Assembly: GCF_903853455.1 (NCBI RefSeq)
Contig: NZ_CAINTR010000186.1
Span: 1-64,000, forward strand
Source: an uncultured Magnetospirillum sp.
GTDB lineage: Bacteria > Pseudomonadota > Alphaproteobacteria > Rhodospirillales > Magnetospirillaceae
Direction: 5' to 3'
DNA length: 64,000 bases
Shown: positions 670 through 17,463 of the stretch, one piece after another
Numbering within the stretch: the first letter of the stretch is position 1
Layout of the letters: every line of letters begins with the position of its first letter
Position numbers and translations under genes: made by a program
The notes under the pieces: model-generated
The model's input: only the letters and a program-made list of their open reading frames with translations
Database searches by the model: none
Told to the model about the DNA's origin: nothing

Positions 670-3600
670 TCATTGTCCATCCACGCCCCTGTCGTTTAGG
701 AGCGCTCTGTAGCTCAGATCGCCCCGCTCGGCCAGCTTGCCGACGATGCCGCGAGCGGTCTTAGCGACCCCTGGTAGTTCGGATTCAAGACCAATCCGGA
801 GGATGGCTTCCACGTGCTCCATGGCCATGGTGTGCCGCCATCCCTCTCGATCCGCCGTCACGAAGGCATCTAGGCCGTCTATCGCACATTTCATATCGGT
901 GGGCGCGATCGCGGCTAGACGGCCCACCACCATGCCAGGGTGGTCGACGTGGTCGGTCAGCTTCAGCACCTCGGCGAGCTTTCGAGCAGACCATTCGGGA
1001 TCCAGCTTGCCGTAGGCAAACCAGCCGCCAAAACTTGCCAGTTCCTCGCGATCGGCAGGGTCAGTGGATTCCCGCGCGACTTTCATGCGCCATTCCCATA
1101 GCGCCTTCATCTTTTCTTGAACGTCCGCGGGGACATCCCCCTCATGCGACGCGAGGCTGTTGGCGACAAACCACATCGCCTTCGACCTTGATTTGGGGAC
1201 GGCTCGATTCAGGAAGCGGACAAGAAGATCGCCTTCCTCCAATTGAACCTTGCCGCGCCAATAGAAAGCGAGAAGATGACAGGCGACGTTTTCCTCAGCG
1301 TGCCGCCAATCCTCCGGATCCTGGCTTTTGGGCGCGCCGGTATTCTGGCCCCAGGGCATCCTTTGAACGGCCAGCTCATAGGTAGGCCGGAGAATATCGA
1401 AGACCTGATCAAACGGACGAGCGTAGGTCGCATACACCGACCATGCCGCGCGCCAGAGATACAGGTCGTCGTTGGCGTCCGGAAACAAAAGCTGCGCTAC
1501 GCCGGCAGCCCAGCCAGCGTCCAGATAGACGAGGGCCGGGAAATATTGGGCATAAACCGAGCGCACAGCGGGTGAGGGATCTCGCTCCAGGTCAAGGTGA
1601 GCATCAAGCAATTCTTGAACCTCTGGCATGGCCTCGAAACCGCCAGACTCACCTTGATCGTTCATTCTCTGGCGACGCCAAATGGCATATTGAATGACAG
1701 AATGTATCGTTTTGCCGCGGACCGAATTGATCGCCAGCATTGCCGCCTCAAAAGCTCGACCGCGTTCATATTCGACCGTTGGGTCAGGATCTTCGGCAAG
1801 CTTCTCCAGAATCCCCCACACCATGGGACCGAGCGCCGGAGGGATAGTGGCCTTGGTGTTCTGGAGTCCGGCGCGCAAAACATCAGCCACGGCTCCCCTG
1901 GCGCCTTCCCAGCTCACGTCACCATTGCCGATGACATCTCGCGGTTCCTCTCCGCGAGGCTGGTCAACGACCCAGGCACAAAGAGCCAATACGGAGTCCC
2001 ATTGGATTTCCGTTCCTTGCTTGGCTTGGGTGTCGAGTCCCCAAATCAGGCTTCGAATCCAGGATTGGTGAACACCAATATAGGCTTCCGCCGCCGCCGA
2101 GAATTCGGACGTCCGCTCTTGCATTATCTGCGGCAGGATCGACGCCAGCTCTGAGGCCGGACCTCGCCCGCTCCCGGGCGGATTGGCTTTCAGGAAATCT
2201 GCGATCTCTGTCGCAGACATCGCACGAAGCTCCTCCTGGGTCTTGGGGCTGGCCTCAACACCAAACACGGACCATGGACGTTGTTCATGGTCAAATCCGC
2301 CCTCGATTTTCTCGAGAAGAGCGGCATCGTCAGCGGGCAATAATTCGGTCGGAATCCAATTCAAGCGCTCCCGGATCCAGACTTTCTTATAGCTTTCCAA
2401 CTGCTCAACGGTGGGTTTCACGCCATGCATGCGCTCCCAGCGGGACACGACGTTTGCAAGATCGGGGCCTTGCCTTACCCAATCGATAACCGCTGTCCGC
2501 TGCTCTACGGACAACTCGGCAAATCTTGCCTGCAGCAACCGACCGTACGGGCCTTCAAAGTCGCCCTCCCCGAATTCCGTTACGTTGGCCATCCTTTCGA
2601 TAGCCTTCCCGCTGGCATCGGGAGCCACTGAGGCCAAAAGGTAGAAAGATACGCACCCAAAGATTTTTCCGCGCTTCCGCTCGATAAGGGTCACGGCATC
2701 ATCGGCGTCGATGAACCCGGAGCGGATCGCCATCTTTGCTACCCGCACGATTGTCGTCGCGAACATGCTCCCAGGATCGTGAATTATTTCTGCGGCTGGC
2801 CATTCATCCTCGGCCGCGGAAAGATTCCGGCCGGTGATATTGGAACAATCCAATCCGTCTGGCCCAAGATACCCTTGCGCCTCTACGGCGGCATTGAGCT
2901 TGGAGCAAAGCGCCTGAATTAGCATTTTCGCGTTAACAGTCGCCAGCGCCGGTAGTATGATTTTTAGCCCTTCCTGAAATAGCCAGAGGTCACTCGCCGT
3001 GTCGGGGAAGGAAACTTCGTCAACGCTGTCGGCGGACTTAGTGCGACGGACAGAATACATCGCGTCAAACAGCTTGAAGGCGGCACGTGACTGGCCGCCG
3101 TTGGCGAGGTGAACAATCACTTTGGGTAGATTGTGCCAGAGGTTGAATGGTCGATTCTTCCCGCCGGCCATCTTTGCGAGAGGTTCGTCCAAGCGAGCTG
3201 CATGGAGCGGCGGCAGGGCAACAGCGATATCGACCAAATAGAATCCTACAATCCTGTTCGGCTTAACGGTAAGGCGCTCGAGTATCCCCGTCACGCGCTC
3301 GGGGTCGTGGGCGGCCATCCGAATTAGGAACGCCGACTCCGGCCAGTGGTCACCCTCCAGAAGATCATCGAAATAGCCCTTTTCATCGAGTGCCTGAAGC
3401 CACCCAGGGTCCTTCACACGCTCGAAGAAATAGTTGCGCACGCCGCCCCGACTGAGGAGCGCGATGAAAGCGTCGATGGTGTCGGGGGACGGTGCCGTGG
3501 TGAGCATGCCGTCGACCTCACCGAGTACGTCAAGGAAACGAGCGACCAGCGCAAATAAGATGCGTTCGAAATCGTTGAAGCGCGCAATCAATTCTGCATG

Positions 3601-4518
3601 GGTGCTTTTAGGCCCCTGATTTCCAACATGCGCATTTTCGACGGCCCATTCGCGGATAAAGTCCCAACGCTTGATCGCGAATTGCGCTGCTCCGCTCGTT
3701 GTGGCTCCAGACGCTTTCCGAAGAGCATCGAATAGAATGGTGGTCTTTTTACGATTCCGCGCTACCCCTTCGGCGTGTTCCCCCAATAGGGCGGCAATTT
3801 GCCGAGCTACCTCGAATGGGATTTTAACTTGGTTCTCCCCAGGCACGTCGACGCTCTCGATCGGCACTGGGAAAAGGTTGTCACCCAGGGGAAGGCCGGC
3901 TTGTTCCCAGGAGGAGCAAATCGGCTTGACCAGCGCCCGATAATTCACCTGTTCGGACGTTATCTCGTCAAGATAGCCAGGAAGCCTGTTCCCAATTTCC
4001 CGAATGCCATGAGCAACGAAATGCAGGCGCGCCGCCGATTCTGGCATGTGAATGAGGGTGACGATCTCCTGATAGACGCCCGCCAGAGGGGGCGCCTGAG
4101 TTTCTAGCCACTGCCGAATTTCTAGCCTGCGCCGGTTCCAAATTTCCGCCACATGATCCACCTGCGATTCACCAAGCTGCTGAACTGTATTCACGGCATC
4201 GGCCACTTTGCGGCGTATTCGCCCCATCCGCACTGCCTGGCGCTCAGCAGCAGTCATTGGGCGCTCTCCCTTGGGCTTGCGGCCTCGCCGGCCTGGCACA
4301 ACTCCAACGGCATCTGGCGCCGGCATTTGACCTACGGCAGCCTTACGAAATTCATCGTACACAGTCTCGACGGCCTTCTTCGCGTCCTCGACGCTGCTGC
4401 CAACTGGCACCAGAACGGCGCTGCCCCCTGAAGCGCGACAATCGAAGGCGCCATCATCGATAGAGATCATGCCCGCTTCGCTCGTCCAGTGCCCCGGCGC
4501 TTCTTCAGCCCACTGCAT
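670..4518 (-). CDS. Very large alpha-solenoid-like protein of unknown function, divergent from BREX
   Basis: The product is about 1282 residues from the ATG at 4518. Two upstream starts are possible: an ATG at 4530, and a TTG at 4572 that lies inside the promoter -35 box and is unlikely. The 4518 ATG has a GAGG 6-7 bases upstream. Residues about 70-100 are very basic, with an AT-hook-like RGRKPKGERP followed by a charged helix. From about residue 115 to the end the protein is almost entirely amphipathic helix with recurring Leu/Trp patterns, as in HEAT/ARM-type repeats. I see no Walker A motif, nuclease motif, signal peptide or membrane segment. Large helical-repeat proteins of this kind occur in prokaryotic defence islands, usually attached to or partnered with an effector, but here no effector domain is visible. 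It is divergently transcribed from brxR. A structural scaffold or sensor role is only an inference. Confidence 0.65.
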   Translation of the reverse strand: MQWAEEAPGHWTSEAGMISIDDGAFDCRASGGSAVLVPVGSSVEDAKKAVETVYDEFRKAAVGQMPAPDAVGVVPGRRGRKPKGERPMTAAERQAVRMGRIRRKVADAVNTVQQLGESQVDHVAEIWNRRRLEIRQWLETQAPPLAGVYQEIVTLIHMPESAARLHFVAHGIREIGNRLPGYLDEITSEQVNYRALVKPICSSWEQAGLPLGDNLFPVPIESVDVPGENQVKIPFEVARQIAALLGEHAEGVARNRKKTTILFDALRKASGATTSGAAQFAIKRWDFIREWAVENAHVGNQGPKSTHAELIARFNDFERILFALVARFLDVLGEVDGMLTTAPSPDTIDAFIALLSRGGVRNYFFERVKDPGWLQALDEKGYFDDLLEGDHWPESAFLIRMAAHDPERVTGILERLTVKPNRIVGFYLVDIAVALPPLHAARLDEPLAKMAGGKNRPFNLWHNLPKVIVHLANGGQSRAAFKLFDAMYSVRRTKSADSVDEVSFPDTASDLWLFQEGLKIILPALATVNAKMLIQALCSKLNAAVEAQGYLGPDGLDCSNITGRNLSAAEDEWPAAEIIHDPGSMFATTIVRVAKMAIRSGFIDADDAVTLIERKRGKIFGCVSFYLLASVAPDASGKAIERMANVTEFGEGDFEGPYGRLLQARFAELSVEQRTAVIDWVRQGPDLANVVSRWERMHGVKPTVEQLESYKKVWIRERLNWIPTELLPADDAALLEKIEGGFDHEQRPWSVFGVEASPKTQEELRAMSATEIADFLKANPPGSGRGPASELASILPQIMQERTSEFSAAAEAYIGVHQSWIRSLIWGLDTQAKQGTEIQWDSVLALCAWVVDQPRGEEPRDVIGNGDVSWEGARGAVADVLRAGLQNTKATIPPALGPMVWGILEKLAEDPDPTVEYERGRAFEAAMLAINSVRGKTIHSVIQYAIWRRQRMNDQGESGGFEAMPEVQELLDAHLDLERDPSPAVRSVYAQYFPALVYLDAGWAAGVAQLLFPDANDDLYLWRAAWSVYATYARPFDQVFDILRPTYELAVQRMPWGQNTGAPKSQDPEDWRHAEENVACHLLAFYWRGKVQLEEGDLLVRFLNRAVPKSRSKAMWFVANSLASHEGDVPADVQEKMKALWEWRMKVARESTDPADREELASFGGWFAYGKLDPEWSARKLAEVLKLTDHVDHPGMVVGRLAAIAPTDMKCAIDGLDAFVTADREGWRHTMAMEHVEAILRIGLESELPGVAKTARGIVGKLAERGDLSYRALLNDRGVDGQ

Positions 4519-4533
4519 CGCTCGCCTCATTTC

Positions 4534-4588
4534 GTGACTCACACAATATGAGGCGAGGCGGGTCTTCGTCAACTAATTTGTGACTCAC
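4534..4588. promoter_or_regulatory. Pair of GTGA-N-TCAC palindromes flanking the promoter
   Basis: The nine-base near-palindrome GTGACTCAC occurs at 4534-4542 and again at 4580-4588, 46 bases apart. The flanks are also similar: ATTT or TTTC before, and CAA..ATG after. One copy sits at the predicted transcription start and the other just upstream of the -35 box. This is the arrangement expected of a repressor operator pair. The binding protein is unknown; BrxR, encoded next door, is one candidate. Confidence 0.4.
4543..4572 (-). promoter_or_regulatory. Sigma-70-type promoter of the large solenoid gene
   Basis: On the minus strand TTGACG (4572-4567) is followed after 18 bases by TATTGT (4548-4543), a good match to -35/-10 boxes. 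The predicted start near 4536 gives a leader of about 18 bases to the ATG at 4518. The TTG at 4572 falls inside the -35 box, which argues against using it as the start. Confidence 0.5.
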
Positions 4589-4916: not shown

Positions 4917-5771
4917 GTGCGCTGGGGGACCGAGCGGAGATTAGAGTTCATCGAGAGCCGCCTGTTCTGGGAGGGCATGGTCAACCGTGCCCACATTTCG
5001 GATACGTTCGGGATCTCGTCCCAACAGGCCTCGGCCGATTTCGCCCGCTACATGGAACTCGCTCCGGGCAACACGGCCTACGACCGCTCCCGCAAAGGCT
5101 ACATCGCCGCCGAGGGATTTCGGCCCGTCCTTTCCCAGCCGGATGCCGGGCGCTACCTCGCGCAACTGCGGCTCGTCGGCGACGGTGCGGTTCCCGTGGA
5201 CGACATCGACCTGCCTTTGCCGCCCTTCGACGTCGTGCCCGGTCCGGTGCGCCGCATCGAGGCCGGAGTGCTGCGGGCCATGCTGACGGCGATTCGCCGA
5301 CATCTGGCCGTCGAGGTGCTCTACCAGAGCATGTCCAAGCCGGAACCGTCCTGGCGCTGGATCGCTCCGCACGCGCTTGCCCATGACGGCTTCCGTTGGC
5401 ACGCCCGCGCCTTCTGCGAGAAGGACCGGGCGTTCAAGGACTTCGTTCTGGCCCGAACCCGGGAAATGCGCGCTACCCGCGCCACCAGCGCCGCTCCCGC
5501 CGCGGATTTGGCTTGGAGCGAGCGGGTGCGCGTCATCATGGGGCCGCACCCTGGGCTCTCCGAGGGCCAACGAAAGGCCATCGAATCCGATTACGCGATG
5601 ACTGGCGGCGTGTCGGTCGTAGACGTCAGAAGGTGCTTCCTGTGGTATTTCCTCAAGAGGTTCGGCCTGGACGTCGATGCGCGCCAACGTCGCCCCCAAG
5701 ACCAGCACATCGTGCTGCTGAACGACGAGGATGTGCTGGCCGCGCTGGCAGGGGGGCGCACGGATGGCTGA
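4917..5771 (+). CDS. brxR: BrxR-family WYL-domain transcriptional regulator of the BREX locus
   Basis: The protein has 284 residues. The start is a GTG at 4917 with a strong AAGGGGG ribosome site (4902-4908). Residues about 3-70 form a winged helix-turn-helix: RRLEFIESRLFWEG leads into a helix-turn-helix around ISDTFGISSQQASADFARY. A WYL-type domain follows at about 110-200, then a C-terminal WCX-like region. This is the layout of BrxR/CapW regulators, which sit at the head of BREX and other defence operons and repress them. It is the first gene of the plus-strand BREX cluster, 66 bases before brxE. The family call is firm; autorepression here is inferred from the family and the upstream repeats. 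Confidence 0.85.
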   Translation: MRWGTERRLEFIESRLFWEGMVNRAHISDTFGISSQQASADFARYMELAPGNTAYDRSRKGYIAAEGFRPVLSQPDAGRYLAQLRLVGDGAVPVDDIDLPLPPFDVVPGPVRRIEAGVLRAMLTAIRRHLAVEVLYQSMSKPEPSWRWIAPHALAHDGFRWHARAFCEKDRAFKDFVLARTREMRATRATSAAPAADLAWSERVRVIMGPHPGLSEGQRKAIESDYAMTGGVSVVDVRRCFLWYFLKRFGLDVDARQRRPQDQHIVLLNDEDVLAALAGGRTDG

Positions 5772-5837: not shown

Positions 5838-6335
5838 GTGAACGACGATGTACTCGCCTTGCGTATCGCGGTCGGCCTGCTTGGAGAGAAGGACCAATTC
5901 GGTTGGTGGCCTTCCGGGTTCCTGGCGCCGACAAGCGTGGCCTTTCTGACTCCGGTGTTCGGCAAACACACCCTGCAGGCGAAGTATCAAGGCGTCGTCG
6001 AGGCGGCCCGAAAGGTCCATGACGACAGGATTGGCGTCGGTCGGGTGTTTCATCTGTTCCGCCTGCCGGAAACGATGGAGCAGCGCTTGTTCGAGTCCTT
6101 CGGAACGCAAGAGACGCAAAGCCGGCTGGAGCGCGTGGCGCATTCGCCGGCGGCGGCCAAGGACTGGCTGGCGGCCCTGGCGGGAGAACCTCTTGAATCG
6201 AAGCCGGGGCCCGTGCTGGTCGGCGGCGCCGATCGGCTCGACGGAAACAGCTGGGGGAAGGCTCTCGCCGCCAAATACGTCTCGGCGTTCAACTCCGGCA
6301 TCCAATGCTTCCCCTATTTCTCCGGGGCGCAATGA
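5838..6335 (+). CDS. brxE: BrxE-family protein
   Basis: The protein has 165 residues from a GTG at 5838, preceded by CAGGGGGA at 5824-5831. It is soluble, with alternating helices and a Gly/Trp-rich segment (GEKDQFGWWPSGFL) close to the N-terminus. Its length, sequence character and position directly before brxA match the small BrxE proteins found at the front of some BREX clusters, notably type 6. Its biochemical role is not known. Its stop overlaps the brxA start (ATGA at 6332-6335), so the two are probably translationally coupled. Confidence 0.7.
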   Translation: MNDDVLALRIAVGLLGEKDQFGWWPSGFLAPTSVAFLTPVFGKHTLQAKYQGVVEAARKVHDDRIGVGRVFHLFRLPETMEQRLFESFGTQETQSRLERVAHSPAAAKDWLAALAGEPLESKPGPVLVGGADRLDGNSWGKALAAKYVSAFNSGIQCFPYFSGAQ

Positions 6336-7114
6336 CGACGAAATACACCACCCAGCTGCAAGCCGGCCTCGGTCTCGTCGCCGAAACGACCCGGCTGCTC
6401 GACCTTTGGGAACCCGGCATGAGTGGCCAGGATCTGCTCAAAAGCGCCTTGGCATCCGGCAGCTTCCCGACGAAATCCGCGCGGCGCCTTCGTAACTTGA
6501 TCATCGAGGCGTTCGCCCCGCGCTTCTTGGTAGCCGACGCCGCCCCCGCCCGCCTGCTCAAAAGGATGGCCGGCGTCTTGGCGAAGGATGACTTGCGCTC
6601 CCTGTGCTTCCTGTTCTCGTGCCGAGCGAACCCGATCCTCGGGGACTTCGTTCGGGAGGTCTATTGGATACGCTACGCCGCGGGCGGAAATTCGGTGTCC
6701 AAGGAGGACGCCCTTCGGTTCGTGCAAGACGCCGTCCGCGACGGCAAGACTACGAGCCGTTGGTCGGAGACCACCATCGTCCGGATCGCCCGGTATTTGC
6801 TGGGAAGTTGCGCGGACTTCGGGCTCTTGGGAGCGATGAAGGCGGAAGCGCGCGGCATATGCTCGTATCGCATCACGCCGGCCATCGCCTCGATCCTCGC
6901 CCATGACCTCCACTTCAAGGGCCTCGGCGACAATTCCATGGTGAGGAGCCAGGATTGGGGGCTCTTCGGAATCGAGGCGGACGATGTGTTGGGGGAGTTG
7001 AAGCGGCTCGCGCTGCAAGGCGAGATCATCCTGCAATCCGCCGGCGCGGTGACGCACATCGCCTGGAAGTACAAATCAATGGAGGACGTCGCCCATGGCC
7101 TCGCTCAAGGCTGA
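6332..7114 (+). CDS. brxA: BrxA-family protein (DUF1819)
   Basis: The 260-residue product starts at the ATG at 6332, which overlaps the brxE stop. A longer frame beginning at 6305 is less likely. The N-terminal sequence TTKYTTQLQAGLGLVAETTRL and the helical body fit the DUF1819/BrxA family. BrxA proteins are small helical, DNA-binding components present in most BREX systems, and resemble the RNA-binding protein NusB in fold. No catalytic motif is expected or seen. The gene overlaps brxB by 20 bases, which supports one operon. Confidence 0.85.
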   Translation: MTTKYTTQLQAGLGLVAETTRLLDLWEPGMSGQDLLKSALASGSFPTKSARRLRNLIIEAFAPRFLVADAAPARLLKRMAGVLAKDDLRSLCFLFSCRANPILGDFVREVYWIRYAAGGNSVSKEDALRFVQDAVRDGKTTSRWSETTIVRIARYLLGSCADFGLLGAMKAEARGICSYRITPAIASILAHDLHFKGLGDNSMVRSQDWGLFGIEADDVLGELKRLALQGEIILQSAGAVTHIAWKYKSMEDVAHGLAQG

Positions 7115-7670
7115 CTTCGACGAGCTCATCCATCGGGTCGAAGCGGGTCGTGAGTTCGCGCATGCGAGCTACGAGCCGATCTTCTATCTGGTCTTCCACC
7201 CCCGTGACCTGCTCGACGTCAAACGCCTGATGCCGGCGTGGACGTCCCGGCTGAAGAACGATGGCTGGCAGGTCGAAACCTTCTCGATCGCCGAACACAT
7301 CGCCGACATCCTTGGGAAGGCTCCTCTACGCAAGGTCTGGCTGGCGGCCGACCGGAAGGAGCCCTTGGCGTGGGCGCGGACGAACAAGGCCCTTGGGAAC
7401 GCGTTGACCGCCCAAAACCGGCTCCAAGCCCGCCTGGAAGAAAGGCTCGCCGGACTTGAAGGGCGCTCGAACACGATCTTGCTGGTCACCGATGTCGAGG
7501 CCCTCCATCCCTACCTGAGGATCGGGGCGGTCGAAGCCCAGCTCCAAGGCAAGTTCCACGTTCCGACCGTCTTTTTCTATCCGGGCACCCGGACGGGCAA
7601 GACCCGCCTGCGGTTCCTCGGATTCTACCCCGAAGACGGCAATTATCGCTCTGTCCATGTCGGCGGCTGA
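7095..7670 (+). CDS. brxB: BrxB-family protein (DUF1788)
   Basis: The 191-residue protein starts at an ATG 9 bases after GGAGG (7081-7085), inside the end of brxA. The sequence has the DUF1788 look: YLVFHPRDLLDVKRLMPAW near residue 35, TILLVTDVEALHPYLR in the middle, and a C-terminal PTVFFYPG followed by LRFLGFYPEDGNYRS. BrxB is required for BREX defence in type 1 systems, but its molecular role is poorly defined. It lies 30 bases before brxC. Confidence 0.88.
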   Translation: MASLKADFDELIHRVEAGREFAHASYEPIFYLVFHPRDLLDVKRLMPAWTSRLKNDGWQVETFSIAEHIADILGKAPLRKVWLAADRKEPLAWARTNKALGNALTAQNRLQARLEERLAGLEGRSNTILLVTDVEALHPYLRIGAVEAQLQGKFHVPTVFFYPGTRTGKTRLRFLGFYPEDGNYRSVHVGG

Positions 7671-7700: not shown

Positions 7701-10700
7701 ATGAACCAGATCCGCAGCCTCTTCGACCCCGGCCGGGGCATTCAGCGCCCGATCGAGAAGGTCATCACCTATCAGGCGTCCCAAGAGCAGCGGCTCAAGG
7801 CCGAAATCTCGGAGTACATCGCCACCGACAGCATCGAGCAGCAGCTCGAACAGCTCTTGGAGAAGATGCACACCGCCATGGAATCCGGCGCCGGCCATGA
7901 GATCGGCGTGTGGGTCTCGGGGTTCTACGGATCCGGAAAAAGCTCGTTTACGAAATACCTTGGCCTCGCTTTCGACGAGCGGGTTACCATTGACGGCAAA
8001 CCGTTCCTCCGCCATCTGCAAGATCGCCTCCACCGGCCTACGACCAAGTCCTTGCTGTCCAAGCTGGCGGCCCGCTTTCCGGCCGCGGTGGTCATGTTGG
8101 ACCTCGCCAGCGAGCAGATCGCCGGGGCGACGTTGGCCGAGGTCTCGACGGTCCTCTACTACAAGGTCCTCCAATACGCCGGCTACTCCCGTAACTTGAA
8201 GGTCGCCGCGCTGGAGCGACGATTGCGCAAGGAGGGTCGATACGCGGAATTCGAGGCCGCGTTCTACGATGAGACCGGCGAAAGCTGGATCGACTACCAA
8301 AACGACGACCTCGTGGTTGATAGCCTGATCCCGCGCCTGGCCCACAAGCTCTACCCGGCCATCTTCCGCACCGACCAGTCCTTCACGACGGTCAGCAGCG
8401 ACGTCATCTACCTGATGAACGATCGCGTCCAAGAGATGATCGACATCGTTCGGGACGCCTCGAGCAAAGACCACATCATCTTCGTCATCGACGAGATCGG
8501 CCAATACATCGGCAGCCAGCAGAACAAGATCCTGGATCTCCAAGGGCTGGCGCAGAACCTGAAGGACCTCGGCGGCGGCAAGGTGTGGATCGTCGGCACG
8601 GCCCAGCAGACCCTTACCGAAGACGACCCCAAGGCCGCCATCAACTCGCCCGAGCTCTACAAGCTCAAGGATCGCTTTCCGATCCCCGTCGCGCTCGAGT
8701 CCAGCGACATCCGGGAAATCTGCTACCGGCGACTGCTCGGCAAATCGGCGTCCGGGGCCACCGATCTCGGCGCCCTCTTCGATCGACACGGCCAGGCTCT
8801 ACGGCAGCACACCAAGCTCATGGACGCCAAGTTCTACGACGCCGGATTCGATCGCGACACGTTCATCAAACTCTATCCGTTCCTTCCCGCGCACTTCGAC
8901 ATCCTGCTCCATCTCCTCGGCGCGCTCGCGAAATCGACGGGCGGAATCGGACTGCGGTCGGCGATCAAGGTAATCCAAGACATCCTTGTCGAAGGTACGG
9001 GTTCCTTGAAGCCGGTCGCCGATCGCGAGGTCGGATGGCTGGCCAACACCGTCACGCTCTTCGACGCGCTCGAAAAAGACATCCGGCGCGCCTTTCCGTC
9101 GGTCCACCATGCGATCGACAAGACCCTGATCCGCTTCCCCGACGACGAGCTCTGCCAAGGCGTGGCCAAGGCCGTAGCCGTCCTGCAAATCCTTGGGAAC
9201 CTGCCGGTCACCACGGACAACGTGGCCGCTCTGATGCATCCCGGGGTCGATTCGGCGTCCATGGCCGACAAGGTCAAGGAGGCCGTCGATCGGCTGTTGA
9301 AGGACGCCATCGTCCCTCTTGGAGAGAAGGACGGGTCCCTTCGCTTCTTCAGCGAGAAGCTCAACGACGTCGAGCAGGAGAGGTCGCAGCTCACCCCCCG
9401 CACCCCGGATCTGCGCCGCGTCTTCAACGAAGCCCTGAGGGAGGTGTTCGACCCGCTTCCCACCGCGCGACTGCACGGCACCCTGTCCGTGACGACGGGG
9501 CTGAAACATCTCGTCGGCGGCCAGCAGGCGTCCCTGGCCGGAGAACGGGAGCCTGTCCAGACCGTGGTTTCCTTCTCGGACGCGGCGGACTACGAGGCGG
9601 AACGCGCCCGCCTGACCGACGAATCCCGGCTGCGGCCCGCCGAGAGCACGATCTACCTTCTAACCCGGCGGTCGCCGGAATCCGACGACCTCGTCGCTGA
9701 AATCTGCCGCAGCCAGCGGATCGTCGAGCTCCACCGCAACGACCCCGATCAAGAGGTCAAGGACTACTGCCAGAGTCAGACCGAACGGGCCGCAAGACAA
9801 TCAAGGGAACTCGGGCAACGCATCGCGCGCAGCCTGTCGCAGGGCTCCTATCTCTTCCGTGGGAGCATCACCGCAGTCGAGAGCCTCGACCCGGTTCTGG
9901 CCTCGGCCGGCCGAAAGCTCCTGAACGACGTGGCGGAACAGGTGTTCGATCGGTATCAGGAAGCGCCGGTGCGCGCCGACACCGTGCTCGCCGAGAAGTT
10001 CCTCCGCAGCCCCAGCCTCCGCTCCATCACATCCCAGCTCGATCCCCTCGGGCTGGTCCAGGTGTCCGGCGGCTCGCCGTCCATCCGCACCGACTACAAG
10101 CCGCTGGTCAGCATCAAGGACTTCATCGAGCGGAATGGGACCGTCGAAGGCAAACGCCTGCTCGACCATTTCGGCGGCGCCCCGTTCGGCTGGTCGCCGG
10201 ACACCGCCCGGTATCTGCTCGCCGCGTTGCTCCTGGCCGGCGAAATCAAGCTGAAGGTCTCCGGACAGGAGGTCACCGTCAATGGCCAACAGGCCATCGA
10301 CGCCTTGAAGACCAACAACACCTTCAAATCGATCGGCGTGGCTTTGCGCGATGATCGCCCCTCCATGGAGGTGTTGGCCCGCGCCGCCGAGCGGCTGACG
10401 GATCTGGCCGGCGAGCCGGTCGTCCCGCTCGAAGAGGACATCAGCAAGGCGGCGCAGAAGCTGCTTCCGGCGTTGCAGCACAAGCTCGCTCCCCTGCCCG
10501 AACGCCTCGGTGCGTTGGGGCTGCCGGGCGCCGACGAAGTCCGGTCCGCCAATCAGCAGATCGCCGACCTTTTGCTGTCGGATGCCTCGGACGCGCCCCA
10601 GCGTTTCGGCGCCGAGCAGTCGCCGCTCTACGACGGTCTCAAATGGGCGCGCGCCGCCAAGCTGGCCTTCGATCACGGCATCGGGGATGCGGTGAAGCAA

Positions 10701-11333
10701 CTGCGCGCCATCGAGAGGGACATCTCCGAGCTTCCCGGCACCGGCGTTCCCCGGGATCTGCGGGAATCGGTCCGTGAGGACCTGAACGTCGCCTCGGACA
10801 TCTTGACCCGCGACGACTTCTTCAAGCACAAGGCCGACCTCAGCACGCGGATCACCGCGATCGAGGTGAAGATCGCCGAGTCTGTCAAGGCGATGCGCGC
10901 CGCCCAGTCCGAGCGCCTCCTCGCCGCAGAGCAGGACCTCTCCCTCCTGCCGGAATGGGTCGAGTTCACGGCCGAGGAGCAGGCGGGAACTCTTTCCAGC
11001 ATCCAAAACCTCGCCATCGCAGTGACGGAGGACATGGCGGGGCTCAAGCGGCTGGTTTCCCGGCAGTTCGACATTGAGGAAACCCTGGCCGAGACAAAGG
11101 CCCGAGTGGTCAAGGAGGGCAGGACGCGCCGACTGCCCCCACCCGCCCCGCCGCCGCCTCCTGGCCACCCGCCGGCCACTCCCGCGCCAAAGAAGGAGAA
11201 AGGGCGGAAGACCGTATCCATCCCGGCCAACATCTCCACGATCGCCGAGCTCGATGCGCTCATCCAATCGCTGGCGTCCTTCCGCCGGGACCTTGCAGAC
11301 AACGTGCTGGACATCGTCGTGAAGGGGGATTGA
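7701..11333 (+). CDS. brxC: BrxC, large P-loop ATPase of BREX
   Basis: The 1210-residue protein starts at the ATG at 7701. The N-terminus SLFDPGRGIQRPIEKVI is typical of BrxC. A Walker A motif, GFYGSGKSS, lies at about residues 76-84, and a Walker B-like IIFVIDEIGQYI at about 256-267. The rest is a long helical region, followed by a Pro-rich linker (about 1135-1165) and a short C-terminal helix. Length and order match intact BrxC/PglY proteins of about 1200 residues. In BREX this ATPase acts with PglX, PglZ and BrxB in modifying host DNA and blocking phage replication. The frame is fully open, in contrast to the damaged pglX immediately downstream (4-base gap). Confidence 0.92.
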   Translation: MNQIRSLFDPGRGIQRPIEKVITYQASQEQRLKAEISEYIATDSIEQQLEQLLEKMHTAMESGAGHEIGVWVSGFYGSGKSSFTKYLGLAFDERVTIDGKPFLRHLQDRLHRPTTKSLLSKLAARFPAAVVMLDLASEQIAGATLAEVSTVLYYKVLQYAGYSRNLKVAALERRLRKEGRYAEFEAAFYDETGESWIDYQNDDLVVDSLIPRLAHKLYPAIFRTDQSFTTVSSDVIYLMNDRVQEMIDIVRDASSKDHIIFVIDEIGQYIGSQQNKILDLQGLAQNLKDLGGGKVWIVGTAQQTLTEDDPKAAINSPELYKLKDRFPIPVALESSDIREICYRRLLGKSASGATDLGALFDRHGQALRQHTKLMDAKFYDAGFDRDTFIKLYPFLPAHFDILLHLLGALAKSTGGIGLRSAIKVIQDILVEGTGSLKPVADREVGWLANTVTLFDALEKDIRRAFPSVHHAIDKTLIRFPDDELCQGVAKAVAVLQILGNLPVTTDNVAALMHPGVDSASMADKVKEAVDRLLKDAIVPLGEKDGSLRFFSEKLNDVEQERSQLTPRTPDLRRVFNEALREVFDPLPTARLHGTLSVTTGLKHLVGGQQASLAGEREPVQTVVSFSDAADYEAERARLTDESRLRPAESTIYLLTRRSPESDDLVAEICRSQRIVELHRNDPDQEVKDYCQSQTERAARQSRELGQRIARSLSQGSYLFRGSITAVESLDPVLASAGRKLLNDVAEQVFDRYQEAPVRADTVLAEKFLRSPSLRSITSQLDPLGLVQVSGGSPSIRTDYKPLVSIKDFIERNGTVEGKRLLDHFGGAPFGWSPDTARYLLAALLLAGEIKLKVSGQEVTVNGQQAIDALKTNNTFKSIGVALRDDRPSMEVLARAAERLTDLAGEPVVPLEEDISKAAQKLLPALQHKLAPLPERLGALGLPGADEVRSANQQIADLLLSDASDAPQRFGAEQSPLYDGLKWARAAKLAFDHGIGDAVKQLRAIERDISELPGTGVPRDLRESVREDLNVASDILTRDDFFKHKADLSTRITAIEVKIAESVKAMRAAQSERLLAAEQDLSLLPEWVEFTAEEQAGTLSSIQNLAIAVTEDMAGLKRLVSRQFDIEETLAETKARVVKEGRTRRLPPPAPPPPPGHPPATPAPKKEKGRKTVSIPANISTIAELDALIQSLASFRRDLADNVLDIVVKGD

Positions 11334-11337
11334 GGCG

Positions 11338-14300
11338 ATGGCCTTTGATGACGCAACCAGGGGGCGGCTCCAAAAGTTCGTGGGTGAAGCGCGGGCCGTG
11401 TTGACGGACGAGTTCGCCAAGCAGCTCCAGCAGGATTACGGCCTCGACCCGCAATCGGGAGGGGTCGCCGAGCTGGACAGCCTGGCCCATCTGGACGATC
11501 AGCGCCTGGAAACGGCCCGCATCCTCCGCGAGATCCTCGACCACTACATGGCGTCGGGCACGGGCTCCGGGGTGGACGCCCGAAAGGCCGTGCTGGACCG
11601 CATGATGCGCGAGCAGGCCTTCACGGTACTGAACCGCCTCGCCGCGCTTCGGATGATGGAGGCCCGCGGCATCGTCATGGAGGCGGTGGCCAAAGGCTAC
11701 CAATCCAAAGCCTTCCAGCTCTACCAGCGGGTCGCCGGGTCGGCCCTGGGCGAGACGGGCGACACCTACCGCTCGTTCCTGTTCAGCCTCTGCGACCTGT
11801 TCGCGGAGGATCTTCCCGCTCTATTCGACCGCCACTCGCCTCATGGCCGGTTGTTCCCGCGCGAGCCCGCCTTGCTGGCGCTGCTGGATTTGCTGAACGC
11901 GGCGGATTTGGATGCCCTTTGGGGACAGGACGAGACGATCGGCTGGATCTACCAGTATTTCAATTCGAGGGAAGAACGGAAGGCGATGCGTGACGCCTCC
12001 CAAGCCCCGCGGAACAGCCGCGAGCTTGCGGTGCGGAACCAGTTCTTCACCCCACGCTACGTGGTCGAGTTCCTAGTCGACAACACTCTCGCTAGGCTCT
12101 GGTTCAACTGGACGGGAGCTCAGACGGGGCTGAGGGATCGCTGCCAGTATCTGCTGGCCAAACCCGACGAGGCGCCGACGCCCGCCCGGAGGCTCCGGGA
12201 TCCTCGGACCATCAAGCTGATCGATCCAGCCTGCGGCTCAATGCATTTCGGCCTCTACGCCTTCGACATCTTCCTCGAAATCTATCGCGAAGCCTGGGAG
12301 TGGGAGCAGACCCATGGGCCGGGATGTCTGGACGCCGAGACCGGAGGGAGCGACGCCCTTAAGCCGCTCAGCCTAACCTACCCGGACCAGGAGGCTTTTC
12401 TCCTCGATGTGCCCCGGCTGATCATCGAGCGCAACATCTACGGCGTCGATATCGACCCGCGAGCCGCACAGATCGCCTCCCTTGCCCTCTGGTTGCGGGC
12501 CCAGCGGGCCTGGCACGAAGCCGGAGTGAAGGCGACGGATCGGCCGCGGGTCGGGCGCGGGAACGTCGTGGCCGCCGTCGCACCGCCGGCTGAGGTTGAA
12601 CTCCGACAGGCCTTCATGAAGGACCTCGATCACCGGGACGCCAAGCTGTTCGAACAGACTCTATTCATGTTGAAAGGGCTTCCGGAGCTTGGGGTGCTTC
12701 TGCAGGTCGAGAAGGAGCTGCCCAGCCTGATCAGAAAGGCATTCGGAGAGCATGGAGGCATGTTCAAAACCGAAGATGCCGAGCGATGGAAGCAGGCTGA
12801 AACTCGACTTCAGAAGGCTTTGGCGGATTTTGCGAAGGCAGCTCAGTCAACCTACCAGGGGCGTCTGTTTGCCCACGATGCCTTGCAGGGTCTGCGTCTG
12901 GTCGATCTCTGCCGTGAGACTTTCGACGTAGCGGTCATGAACCCACCTTTTGGCGCTCTGGCCATCGGCACAAAGGATCAGCTCAATAAGGCATTCCCAA
13001 GCAGTAAAAACGACCTTATGGCCATTTTCGTTGAGCGCGGGCTGGAGTTGATGCGCGGCGGCGGACGTATCGGCGCAATTACGTCACGTACTTGCTTCTT
13101 TCTAAGCAGCTTTGAAAGATGGCGTGAAGACGTGGTGCTCGGAAAGTCTTGGCCGGAAATTATGGCAGATTTAGGTCATGGCGTAATGGATGACGCAATG
13201 GTTGAGGCAGCCGCATATGTATTGGAGAAGCAGAAATGACCCTATTTCTCCGACTTGCCACACCTCATGACAAAGAGGATGCGATGCGGCGTATGTGCGC
13301 CGAGCTCCGAGCGAATATTGCGGCATGTGATGTATTTGAGATTGAAATAAAAGAATTTTCATCAATCCCAGGCTCACCCTTTGCTTACTGGAGTAGCGAA
13401 GGGCTAAGAAAAAATTTTCGCGACCTCCCCCCGTTCGAACACGGGCGGAAGCCGTTGTGCACGAGTCGGACTTCAGACGTCAGACGATTTTAGGTTCGTC
13501 AGAACATTTTGGGAAGTATTACCAGAGGCAATGTTCAGTTCGTGGTATCCTTTTGTAAAAGGCGGAAATGCATCTAAGTTTTACGGCAACCTTTCACTAA
13601 TGGTACTATGGAAAGATGACGGAGCCGAACTTAAGGCGTGGTCAACTACGGTGAACAAGGGGCAACAGGTCAAGACAGCTTCGTAGCTACGAATTTTACA
13701 AGCGCAGCGGCTTAACGTGGCCGTTACGAGCCGCAGATCTTTCCCCATACCCCATGCCTGCAAACACCTTGTTTAGTATTCGTGGGGCTGTTGCATTTGA
13801 CAGTGCCGATAGATTACTTCCACTATTGGGCCTTATGGCGAGCCGACCCTTTGATTATCTTTACAAGCTGTTGCTCGGTAGGTTTGGCCACCCTGAATTC
13901 GGGATTGGGTCCTTGCAAAAGGTCCCCGTTCCATCGTCAATTCCCGAACACATGGGTAAATTGGCGCGCCGCAGTTGGTCGCTAAAACGTACTCTTGACA
14001 CTATCGAAGAAAACTCTCACGCATTTTTGCTTCCTGAAGTCTTACGGCCTCGTTTAGGTGGCTTTGATACCCAAGCTATAGAAGCCGAATTGATAAAAAT
14101 TCAGGACGAAATCGACTCCATTGCCTTCGTTCACTATGGCTTTTCCGTCGAAGACCGCGTAGCCGCACAGTCTGGACGTATCTCCGAGGTCAGAAATGAC
14201 GAAGCTGGCGATGTTGAAGATGACGGTGAGGACGAGGATAGTGCTGCCCCAATCGACCAAACCGCTGGCCTACTGAGTTGGGCCGTTGGCGTCGTTTTTG

Positions 14301-14958
14301 GCCGATTCGACTGGCACCTTGCCACCTATGAGCGCAACGTACCGGCGGAACCTGACCCGTTTGATTCACTGCCTGCAAAAAGCCCCGGAATGCTACCCGA
14401 TGGGGTTGAGACGTTTCACGGTCATACTGGCATCTTGATTGACGATCCTGGCCACACGCACGACCTGCCGCGCTTGATTGAAGAAGTGCTGGTGCGCGTT
14501 GAGGCTCCGATGCCGTCGGAAGTGCGCCGCTGGTTGCAACGGGACTTTTTTGCCTTCCACTTGCAGCGTTATACCAAAAGCCGCCGCAAGGCGCCCATCT
14601 ACTGGCCGCTGGCAACCGCCTCGGGCGGCTATACGCTGTGGCTCTATTACCCCAGCCTGTCCAGCCAAACGCTATACAGCGCCGTTAATGATTTCATAGA
14701 GGGGCCGACCGGCAAGCTCAATCGAGTAAGGCAGGAGCTTTCCGCTTTACGCGACAAAGGCAGCGCTCGCTCACGGGAAGATGACAAAGCTTTTGAGGCG
14801 CTCCAGAGCTTGGAGCTGGAACTGATCGATCTTCGCGACAGCCTGCTGAAGATTGCGGCAAGCTGGCAGCCCAACCACGACGACGGGGTGCAGATCACCG
14901 CCGCCCCGCTATGGCCGCTGTTCCGCCACAAGCCCTGGCAGAAGGTGTTGAAAGACAC
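11338..14958 (+). pseudogene. pglX: pglX, BREX adenine-specific DNA methyltransferase, broken by three frame changes and 3'-truncated
   Basis: The first frame (11338-13239) encodes the N-terminal and methyltransferase regions, with motif I LIDPACGS at about residue 295 and motif IV NPPF at about 534. PglX-like sequence then continues in other frames. It runs from 13236 (ending in SPFAYWSSEGLR and LPPFEHGR), then from about 13462 (VGLQTSDDFRFVR through WYPFVKGGNASKFYGN, stopped by TAG at 13684), then from about 13690 (SGLTWPLRAADL onward). The last frame reaches DGVQITAAPLWPLFRHKPW near 14938, close to the normal PglX C-terminus. Its last residues are missing because the sequence switches to a pglZ end. 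The segment from about 12.9 to 14.3 kb is clearly AT-richer than its flanks. PglX normally methylates the fifth adenine of a six-base motif. As read, no full-length enzyme can be made; sequencing error at three points is the alternative. Confidence 0.85.
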
Positions 14959-15006
14959 CTGGCCACCTACGCCTCGATCGAGCTGGAGACCGACTATGCA
15001 GTCTGA
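14959..15006 (+). pseudogene. pglZ: Probable remnant of the 3' end of pglZ
   Basis: In the frame offset from the pglX/brxL frame, bases 14959-15006 read LATYASIELETDYAV and then a TGA. This looks like a coding C-terminus, and its stop overlaps the brxL ATG at 14996, as coupled operon genes do. In type 1 BREX, pglZ lies exactly between pglX and brxL. The normal gene is about 2.5 kb and encodes an alkaline-phosphatase-superfamily protein that is essential for BREX. Only about 15 codons remain. Identity as pglZ is inferred from position and the overlap; 15 residues are too few to prove it. Confidence 0.5.
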
Positions 15007-17137
15007 TTACGTCATGGATCCGCTCGACAAGAAGCTCAACGACGTTCTCGACGGGAAGGTCGTGCGCAAGGATCTGCTGCACCGGATCAAGACCGGGACG
15101 AACATTCCGACCTTCATCTTGGAGTTCCTCCTCGCCCGGTATTGCGCCAGCAACGATCCCGCCGAGATCCAAGCCGGCATGGAGGCCGTCCTCTCGACCA
15201 TCCAGGAGAACTACGTCCGTCCGGACGAGGCCAACGCCGCCCAGTCCCGCGTGGCCATGAAGGGCAAGCACAAGTTCATCGACAAGGTCCATGTCCGCTA
15301 CGTCGAGAAGGAAAAGCGGCATTGGGCGTCCTTGGAAAACTTCGCGTCGCAACGGATTGCGATCGGGGAGAAGTTCTACCGCGACAACGATCGCCTGCTC
15401 GAAGGCGGGATCTGGGCCGAGGTCGTGATCGCCCACAACGACATCGAAGCGGACAAATACGCCTTCTACATCGAGGACCTCCGCCCCATCCAGCTCAGCC
15501 GCTTCAATTTCTCCTCCTACGGGGAAGCCCGAAAGGCGTTCGATCGGAACGAGTGGATGGACGTCATCCTCCGCTCCGTCGGTCTGGAACCCGCGAAGCT
15601 GACCCCGCGCGTCAAATTCCACTTCATCGCGAGGCTGGCGCCGCTGGTCGAACCGAACTTCAACTTCATCGAGCTGGGGCCGCGCGGCACCGGGAAGTCC
15701 TACTTCTTCAGCGAGTTCTCCCCCTACTCGACGCTGATCAGCGGCGGCCAAGCGACCAAATCGGTCCTCTTCTACAACAACGCCCGCCACAAGATCGGCC
15801 TCGTCGGCTTCTGGGACACCGTCGCCTTCGACGAGGTTGGCGGCATTCGGGTGAAGGATCCCGACACGATCCAGATCATGAAGGACTACATGGCCAACGG
15901 CCGGTTCTCCCGCGGCGCCGAGGTCATCGCCGACGCCAGCATGGCGTTCGTCGGGAACATCGACCAGTCCATCGAGCAGATCGTGAACTCCACCGAATAC
16001 GACTTGTTCCAGCCTTTGCCAGAACAGTTCGACCTGGCCGTGATGGATCGCTTCGCCTGCTACCTGCCGGGCTGGGAGATGCCGAAGAACAGCAGCAGCT
16101 TCCTGACCGACCGGTTCGGCCTCATCACCGACTTCCTGGCGGAGGCGTTCCATCATCAGCTCAAGCACAGCAACCGCTACGAGGAGGTCAGCAAGCGCCT
16201 GAAGCTCGGTTCCATGGTCGAGGGCCGAGACGAGAAGGGAATCAAGAAGACCCTCTGCGCGTTCCTGAAGATCCTCCACCCCTCCGATCAGCCCTCAGAC
16301 GTGGAGTTCGAGGAATACGTGGCCTACGCCATCGAATGCCGGCGGCGCGTCAAGGAGCAGATGAACAAGCGCAAACCAGACGACGAGTTCGCCCGGATCG
16401 ATCTGTCGTATTTTTCCAAAGGCGGCCAGGAAATCATCGTCCGGTGTCCTGAGACCATCAACGCCTCCGCGACCTTGGAGCCGGCCCGTCGTCGCCTTCA
16501 AAGGTCCTCGGACGCCGAAGACGCGCCGCGAAAGCCGACCGAACCCGCCGTCGTTGTGGAAACGCCCATTGTCTCGGCAGTCGCCCCCACGGCTCCTGCG
16601 CAAGGTCTCTCCTTGCCTCCTGAGCCGGCGCCCGCTCCGGCTGTGTCCGGGATGCCGGAAGAGCGCCACTACACCATCGCCTATGGAGACACAGGCCACT
16701 CCTACGACACCATTTTCGGCCCCTACTTCGCCGGCGCCAAATCGGTCTTCGTCGAGGATCCCTACATCCGGATGCCCCACCAGATCACGAACTTCGTCAG
16801 GTTCTGCGAAGCCGCCATCAAGGTGCCGACGATCCAGAACATCAAGCTGGTGACCAGCTATGACCAGCAGACGGATCTGGCCGCCATCCACGAAAAGCTC
16901 GATGAGCTCAAGCAGAGCCTTCTGGAATACGACGTCGTGCTCGACATCGAATTGAACGACAAGCTGCACGACCGAGAGGTTCGGCTCGACAACGGCTGGG
17001 TCGTGAAAATCGGGCGCGGCCTGGACTTCTTCCAAAAGCCCGACGGATGGTTCTCCGTAGGCGCGATCGATCTGAACCTTAGACGGTGCCTTGAAACCAA
17101 GGTTGATGTGTTCCGGGAGCCGCCGAAGGGCGGCTGA
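14996..17137 (+). CDS. brxL: BrxL-type AAA+ protein with a C-terminal MIT_C-like domain
   Basis: The 713-residue reading starts at the ATG at 14996. This frame is continuous with the upstream pglX fragment from 13754, so a pglX-brxL fusion is formally possible. The N-terminal half (MDPLDKKLNDVLDGKVV onward) and the Walker A GPRGTGKSY at about residues 228-236 are characteristic of BrxL, the Lon-related ATPase of type 1 BREX. After a Pro/Ala-rich linker (about 510-550), residues about 557-700 (HYTIAYGDTGHSYDTIF, then VEDPYIR and GRGLDFFQKPDGWF) resemble the phospholipase-D-like MIT C-terminal domain. A Lon protease domain with a Ser-Lys dyad is not seen. BrxL is a DNA-binding AAA+ machine needed for phage exclusion but not for methylation. 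A GCCGCC/GGCGGC hairpin overlaps the stop. Confidence 0.85.
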   Translation: MQSDYVMDPLDKKLNDVLDGKVVRKDLLHRIKTGTNIPTFILEFLLARYCASNDPAEIQAGMEAVLSTIQENYVRPDEANAAQSRVAMKGKHKFIDKVHVRYVEKEKRHWASLENFASQRIAIGEKFYRDNDRLLEGGIWAEVVIAHNDIEADKYAFYIEDLRPIQLSRFNFSSYGEARKAFDRNEWMDVILRSVGLEPAKLTPRVKFHFIARLAPLVEPNFNFIELGPRGTGKSYFFSEFSPYSTLISGGQATKSVLFYNNARHKIGLVGFWDTVAFDEVGGIRVKDPDTIQIMKDYMANGRFSRGAEVIADASMAFVGNIDQSIEQIVNSTEYDLFQPLPEQFDLAVMDRFACYLPGWEMPKNSSSFLTDRFGLITDFLAEAFHHQLKHSNRYEEVSKRLKLGSMVEGRDEKGIKKTLCAFLKILHPSDQPSDVEFEEYVAYAIECRRRVKEQMNKRKPDDEFARIDLSYFSKGGQEIIVRCPETINASATLEPARRRLQRSSDAEDAPRKPTEPAVVVETPIVSAVAPTAPAQGLSLPPEPAPAPAVSGMPEERHYTIAYGDTGHSYDTIFGPYFAGAKSVFVEDPYIRMPHQITNFVRFCEAAIKVPTIQNIKLVTSYDQQTDLAAIHEKLDELKQSLLEYDVVLDIELNDKLHDREVRLDNGWVVKIGRGLDFFQKPDGWFSVGAIDLNLRRCLETKVDVFREPPKGG

Positions 17138-17463
17138 AGCAGCAGTCCGGGAGCATTCCATGAACGGGAAAGGTTAGAAGCCGAAGGCCAAGGGACCGCT
17201 GCAGGACGCCGCTCACGCATTCGTAGTCGCCGCGCAATATCGATACGGCGCGGCGTGGCCCGTAATCATCAGAGACCGTGTTCCTGCACGCTGGCAGTGT
17301 GCTAACGGTGACCGTAAGTGCTTGATATTCCAGCGTAGAGGGTTAGGCAGCGGTTCCCTTTCCTACGCCAATAATTTCAATGAGTTACGGCGCTTTCTGC
17401 GGGCTGCAAATTATGTCCAGTAAGCACATAGTAAGCACGGATGTTGCTGTATTCTGAACGCCC
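17138..17463. other. Island-edge intergenic region
   Basis: The 326 bases after brxL hold the amber-interrupted ORF listed next and little else. Near 17419 a short direct repeat AGTAAGCAC occurs twice within 20 bases (17419-17427 and 17430-17438). No integrase or tRNA is visible, so I cannot call it an attachment site. Confidence 0.4.
17160..17423 (+). pseudogene. Possible small gene interrupted by an in-frame TAG at codon 6
   Basis: An ATG at 17160, preceded by GGGAG, reads MNGKG and then TAG (17175-17177). After that the same frame stays open for 81 codons to TAA at 17421. The open part includes AAHAFVVAAQYRYGAAWPV and ends RRFLRAANYVQ, which looks like plausible protein rather than low-complexity shadow. 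I do not recognise a family. It could be a gene killed by a nonsense mutation, a gene with a different start, or chance. Confidence is low. Confidence 0.25.

Follow-up and report, generated by a model that had tools for sequence, protein, structure and literature searches.

A type 1 BREX operon in which pglX runs almost directly into brxL raises the question of what became of pglZ, and of whether the genes that remain still form a working defence system. In the window, by which we mean the whole stretch of 64,000 nucleotides from an uncultured Magnetospirillum sp. that was analysed here, the ORF list together with PADLOC and Pfam models delineates a plus-strand type 1 BREX operon consisting of a WYL regulator, brxA, brxB, brxC, pglX and brxL, yet the pglX-brxL interval, the expected site of pglZ, holds no pglZ gene. 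As set out below, comparison with related loci indicates that this is very probably a type 1 BREX locus that lost its function recently, disabled through a CTGG-CTGG deletion and carrying two frameshifts in the second of its pglX genes.

The operon is headed by a WYL-domain regulator in a BrxR-like position (4917-5771; PF13280 and PADLOC WYL models), followed on the same strand by intact brxA (6305-7114; PADLOC BrxA at 5e-104, PF08849), intact brxB (7095-7670; PADLOC BrxB at 1e-100 over its full length, PF08747) and intact brxC (7701-11333), the product of which matches the PADLOC BrxC model over nearly its full length and is 78% identical, over its whole length, to BrxC of Microvirga splendida (L001). 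Downstream lies pglX1 (11338-13239), an intact gene for the methyltransferase part of pglX, which is naturally split here, with an Eco57I domain and a match to positions 1-659 of 1332 in the PADLOC PglX model at 3e-270. It is followed by pglX2 (13236-14962), the target-recognition/C-terminal half, which frameshift-aware alignment with four intact relatives identifies as a pseudogene with two frameshifts and its last ~60 codons deleted, and, beyond the deletion junction, by intact brxL (14996-17137; PF20442, PF13337 and PF16565), whose product has a C-terminal PLD/HKD-like domain and is 81% identical to that of L001. When checked for the components of a type 1 system, the window thus contains brxA, brxB and brxC in order as well as brxL; pglZ is absent but for 15 codons, and pglX is without a complete target-recognition part. 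On the minus strand, a 1300-codon ORF without a Pfam match adjoins the operon (670-4572).

The initial view of pglX is refined by these comparisons, which show that the gene is naturally two overlapping genes, the second with two frameshifts. pglX1 ends in an ATGA overlap with the second ORF, which starts at 13236, and the same split is found in L001, L002 and L004-L010. That the pglX1/pglX2 pair might be a single gene broken by a frameshift was considered and rejected, as relatives carry the same ATGA-overlapping pair. Split pglX genes occur in 33 of 60 classifiable loci, mostly with the ATGA overlap, and the other 27 have a single long pglX; the split ORFs comprise ~630 and ~640 codons, and PADLOC includes models fitting each half. 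In the published PglX structure, residues 672-1221, C-terminal to the methyltransferase, resemble type I specificity subunits, and the target-recognition domain lies at 662-849 (PMC11341690); the split therefore falls between the methyltransferase and specificity parts. The arrangement looks HsdM/HsdS-style; no description of pglX split into two ORFs was found in the literature searched, and the split merits separate study.

Within pglX2, frameshift-aware alignment with the four relatives places the changes of frame at ~13446-13476 and ~13654-13687, and the broken frame brings normal translation from 13236 to a stop at 13493. The remaining brx ORFs, 9.06 kb in all, show no frameshift; were the two placed uniformly, the chance of both falling in pglX2 would be ~0.026, a weak indication. 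G+C content is 0.49-0.54 at 12600-14400 vs ~0.65 in the preceding part of pglX1, a drop consistent with a separately exchanged target-recognition region.

For the junction between pglX2 and brxL, the comparison set comprised 80 loci encoding relatives of the window BrxL, and in the nearest of these the gene order is brxC-pglX1-pglX2-pglZ-brxL. The preliminary description had proposed that pglX C-terminal coding abuts a 15-codon ORF end overlapping the brxL ATG, and that an internal deletion of ~2.5 kb or more had removed pglZ from a type 1 BREX locus; both proposals are borne out. Aligned by blastn against relatives, the region 11338-17300 gives two clean blocks with each, the pglX block ending at 14962 in most and the second block starting at 14958-14984 in most and continuing into brxL, such that both deletion edges align to intact homologous BREX loci. 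In the frameshift-aware comparison, the PglX alignment stops exactly at 14962 (...KPWQKVLKDTW), and the PglX2 stops of the four relatives lie 59-62 residues beyond this point. The other frame at the junction reads LATYASIELETDYAV-TGA, with the stop at 15004-15006, and this LATYASIELETDYAV end, which the preliminary description had suggested comparing with related PglZ C-termini, aligns to them gap-free; among the best is L005 (...LAQYASLELETDYAV), with 13 of 15 residues identical. The pglZ remnant (14963-15006), delimited by alignment with PglZ C-termini of nine relatives, accordingly comprises the last 15 codons and the stop, the first of these codons beginning within the junction bases at 14959.

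What was lost is the final ~60 codons of pglX2 along with the whole of pglZ but for 15 codons. By blastn coordinates, the missing interval measures 2640-2677 bp in eight relatives (L001, L003, L005, L006, L007, L009, L010 and L011), about the size first estimated, and ~4.46-4.47 kb in L004 and L100, the latter from a genome of the same order; in L004 the extra length is accounted for by a gene of GmrSD type (type IV restriction) that separates pglX2 from pglZ. Judged from these alignments, the size of the deletion is at least ~2.64 kb, a lower bound that allows for an ancestor with the extra gene of L004. GmrSD-type genes between pglX and pglZ were seen in both L004 (5572-7485) and L014 (5662-7470). 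The junction itself (14958-14962) consists of CTGG, or possibly CCTGG, which the two ancestral edges shared, judging by the relatives' breakpoint sequences and the ends of the blast blocks: the pglX edge in relatives is mostly ACCTGG and the pglZ edge is CTGGC in several, and the join therefore probably came about through a match of 4-5 bases.

A pglZ gene located elsewhere could still complete the system, and the whole assembly (5.18 Mb, 223 contigs) was accordingly searched. No PglZ was found in it by the Pfam PglZ model, by one PADLOC PglZ model or with the full-length PglZ of the closest relative as query. The last of these searches was added because the Pfam model alone can miss PglZ: genome G249, which by that model seemed a second case of brxL without PglZ, was rejected when a PADLOC model showed a diverged PglZ adjoining brxL. 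As positive controls, a full-length PglZ query recovers its homologue from a genome in which PglZ is known to occur, and the Pfam model scores the closest relative's PglZ at 53 bits. PglZ precedes BrxL in 80 of the 80 related loci, as far as each contig reaches, and in the window there is none. Searches with the junction in 17 same-genus genomes did not reveal the scar a second time and otherwise matched just 32 bases, in G013, and among the matches listed from plasmid records there was only brxL at 65-75% identity and no copy of the window locus.

While alignment to intact relatives thus establishes the deletion and the two frameshifts in the assembled sequence, the lesions admit other explanations. 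The true genome might possess an intact pglX2-pglZ that was corrupted in sequencing or assembly, given that the assembly is a draft of 223 contigs and that frameshifts and a deletion within one gene could be local errors; we consider this unlikely, as an assembler would hardly connect sequences through a match of 4-5 bp in the interior of a contig of 90,952 bases, no other contig holds PglZ in a genome whose completeness is rated at 100%, and both frameshifts, as aligned, lie beyond the closest homopolymers of at least five bases (A6 at 13409, C6 at 13427). The same two tracts, ~15-35 bases ahead of the first frameshift, could be taken, together with the frequency of pglX disruptions and the reported phase variation of pglX (PMC9122589), to mean that the pglX2 frameshifts represent a reversible phase-variation off state, with pglZ lost in a separate event. 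This is barely credible: the frameshifts are two and separate, there is no long simple repeat, the frame is kept past both tracts, and a reversal of the switch would bring back neither the deleted C-terminus nor pglZ. A further possibility concerns the 1127-codon frame 13754-17137, which, as the preliminary description stated, runs through the scar without a stop, and which combines a C-terminal piece of PglX with complete BrxL; the same description's suggestion that it might encode a PglX-BrxL fusion, here weighed as a possible new effector, fares less well. The frame has neither a genuine start nor an uninterrupted PglX part, and because its ATG at 13754 corresponds to ~codon 170 of pglX2 rather than to a pglX start, and pglX2 is itself broken twice upstream, it probably does not represent a fusion gene. 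Ahead of 13754 there is no evident ribosome-binding site, whereas the brxL ATG at 14996 is preceded, 7 bases away, by GGAG (14985-14988), a probable ribosome-binding site inside the pglZ remnant, and several of the ten relatives shown have GGAGACCGACTATG around this site unchanged, the rest having it almost unchanged. In addition, the fusion is absent from all eleven nearest relatives, the frames would match by chance in 1/3 of cases, and the junction is only ~34 bases from the brxL start. Separate translation of BrxL from its own start appears the simpler reading, and a real fusion protein is very unlikely.

There is a small chance that the remnant partly works without PglZ and PglX, for example through the HKD-like nuclease domain of BrxL acting alone or with BrxABC. 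The brxABC, pglX1 and brxL frames are all still open, brxC, pglX1 and brxL show purifying selection like that of intact relatives, and in the same genus G013 likewise retains most of brxL in an open frame with no PglZ. However, recent loss accounts equally well for the intact frames. The pN/pS of brxC, pglX1, pglX2 and brxL vs relatives resembles that among intact relatives and is not raised, a pattern that points to recent decay and does not show continued function. Knock-outs elsewhere also argue that pglZ is needed: in E. coli BREX, deletion of the pglZ homologue led to loss of both methylation and protection (PMC6326788), and in Acinetobacter BREX, pglZ deletion abolished methylation and slowed growth (PMC9122589). 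Moreover, BrxL expressed alone was toxic in E. coli (PMC6326788, PMC9122589). A related proposal holds that the remnant is retained for use, with the BrxL HKD-like nuclease, free or fused to the PglX piece, working without PglZ and the pglX2 frameshifts selected to remove PglX toxicity after the loss of pglZ; we judge it distinctly unlikely.

The brxC-pglX1-pglX2-(pglZ)-brxL order is common to the window and to intact alphaproteobacterial type 1 BREX loci, such as those of Microvirga splendida (L001, 78% identical to the window in both BrxC and PglX1 and 81% in BrxL), Roseomonas (L006, L007) and others, but the window differs from these in retaining only 15 codons of pglZ, in lacking the end of pglX2 and in its two pglX2 frameshifts. 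Its BrxL is of the BrxL-HKD variant (PMC12839542), in which the Lon-like domain is replaced by a PLD-like PF16565 domain, here encoded by the C-terminal 140 codons and bearing an HxRx4D motif (HDREVRLD); BrxL-HKD loci nearly always retain active PglZ (PMC12839542), whereas the window locus does not. Another inactive locus is the StySA BREX of the Salmonella laboratory strain ER3625, which has a defective pglZ and has lost both restriction and methylation (PMC9009780). In StySA, however, pglZ (with an early stop) and brxC are multiply mutated and pglX is wild type, while in the window pglZ is deleted and pglX2 is broken.

In the reading favored here, a deletion between short CTGG matches took the last ~60 codons of pglX2 together with pglZ except its last 15, and two frameshifts, acquired before or after this deletion, broke the half of the methyltransferase gene that specifies target recognition. 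A cell lacking both PglZ and a functional PglX would be expected to have neither BREX methylation nor phage exclusion, and we infer that the locus is inactive, dead or dying. Survival without pglZ may depend on pglX2 being broken, because in another type 1 BREX system BrxC and PglX are toxic together and BrxB and PglZ give partial relief (PMC12205998).

Damage of this kind is not confined to the window. A strong BrxL match was found in 13 of 317 genomes of the order, and within the genus distant BREX systems that include PglZ are present in G001 and G006. In G013, also of the same genus, brxL residues 102-709 share one open frame with the start of another gene (L099, 14238-16397), apparently, by eye, one for a secreted phospholipase-D-like protein; this remnant is like the window in its BREX decay, open brxL frame and lack of PglZ, but unlike it in that only this part of brxL is left, with neither pglX nor pglZ adjoining. 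In G134, of the same family, an in-frame deletion has removed most of the ATPase domain from brxL (L101, ~3640-4555), the C-terminal PLD-like part remains open, and no PglZ was found by the Pfam model. Because G013 and G134 thus also have damaged brxL without PglZ found, BREX decay is recurrent in the window's group. More widely, a survey recorded PglZ in 88% of 3937 canonical BREX taxa (PMC12839542), and PglZ-less BREX loci are therefore not unheard of.

Viewed in this context, the window locus represents ordinary gene decay of a defence island, a fresh example of a known event. For annotation, it serves as a warning that a locus can contain brxABC, BrxL and an apparent PglX without being a working BREX system. 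For the biology of BREX, the natural double lesion, with pglZ lost and the specificity half of PglX broken, agrees with laboratory reports of BREX being harmful in the absence of PglZ and of such constructs acquiring damage in other genes; were the order in which the lesions arose established in related strains, it would provide natural evidence for PglZ restraining PglX.
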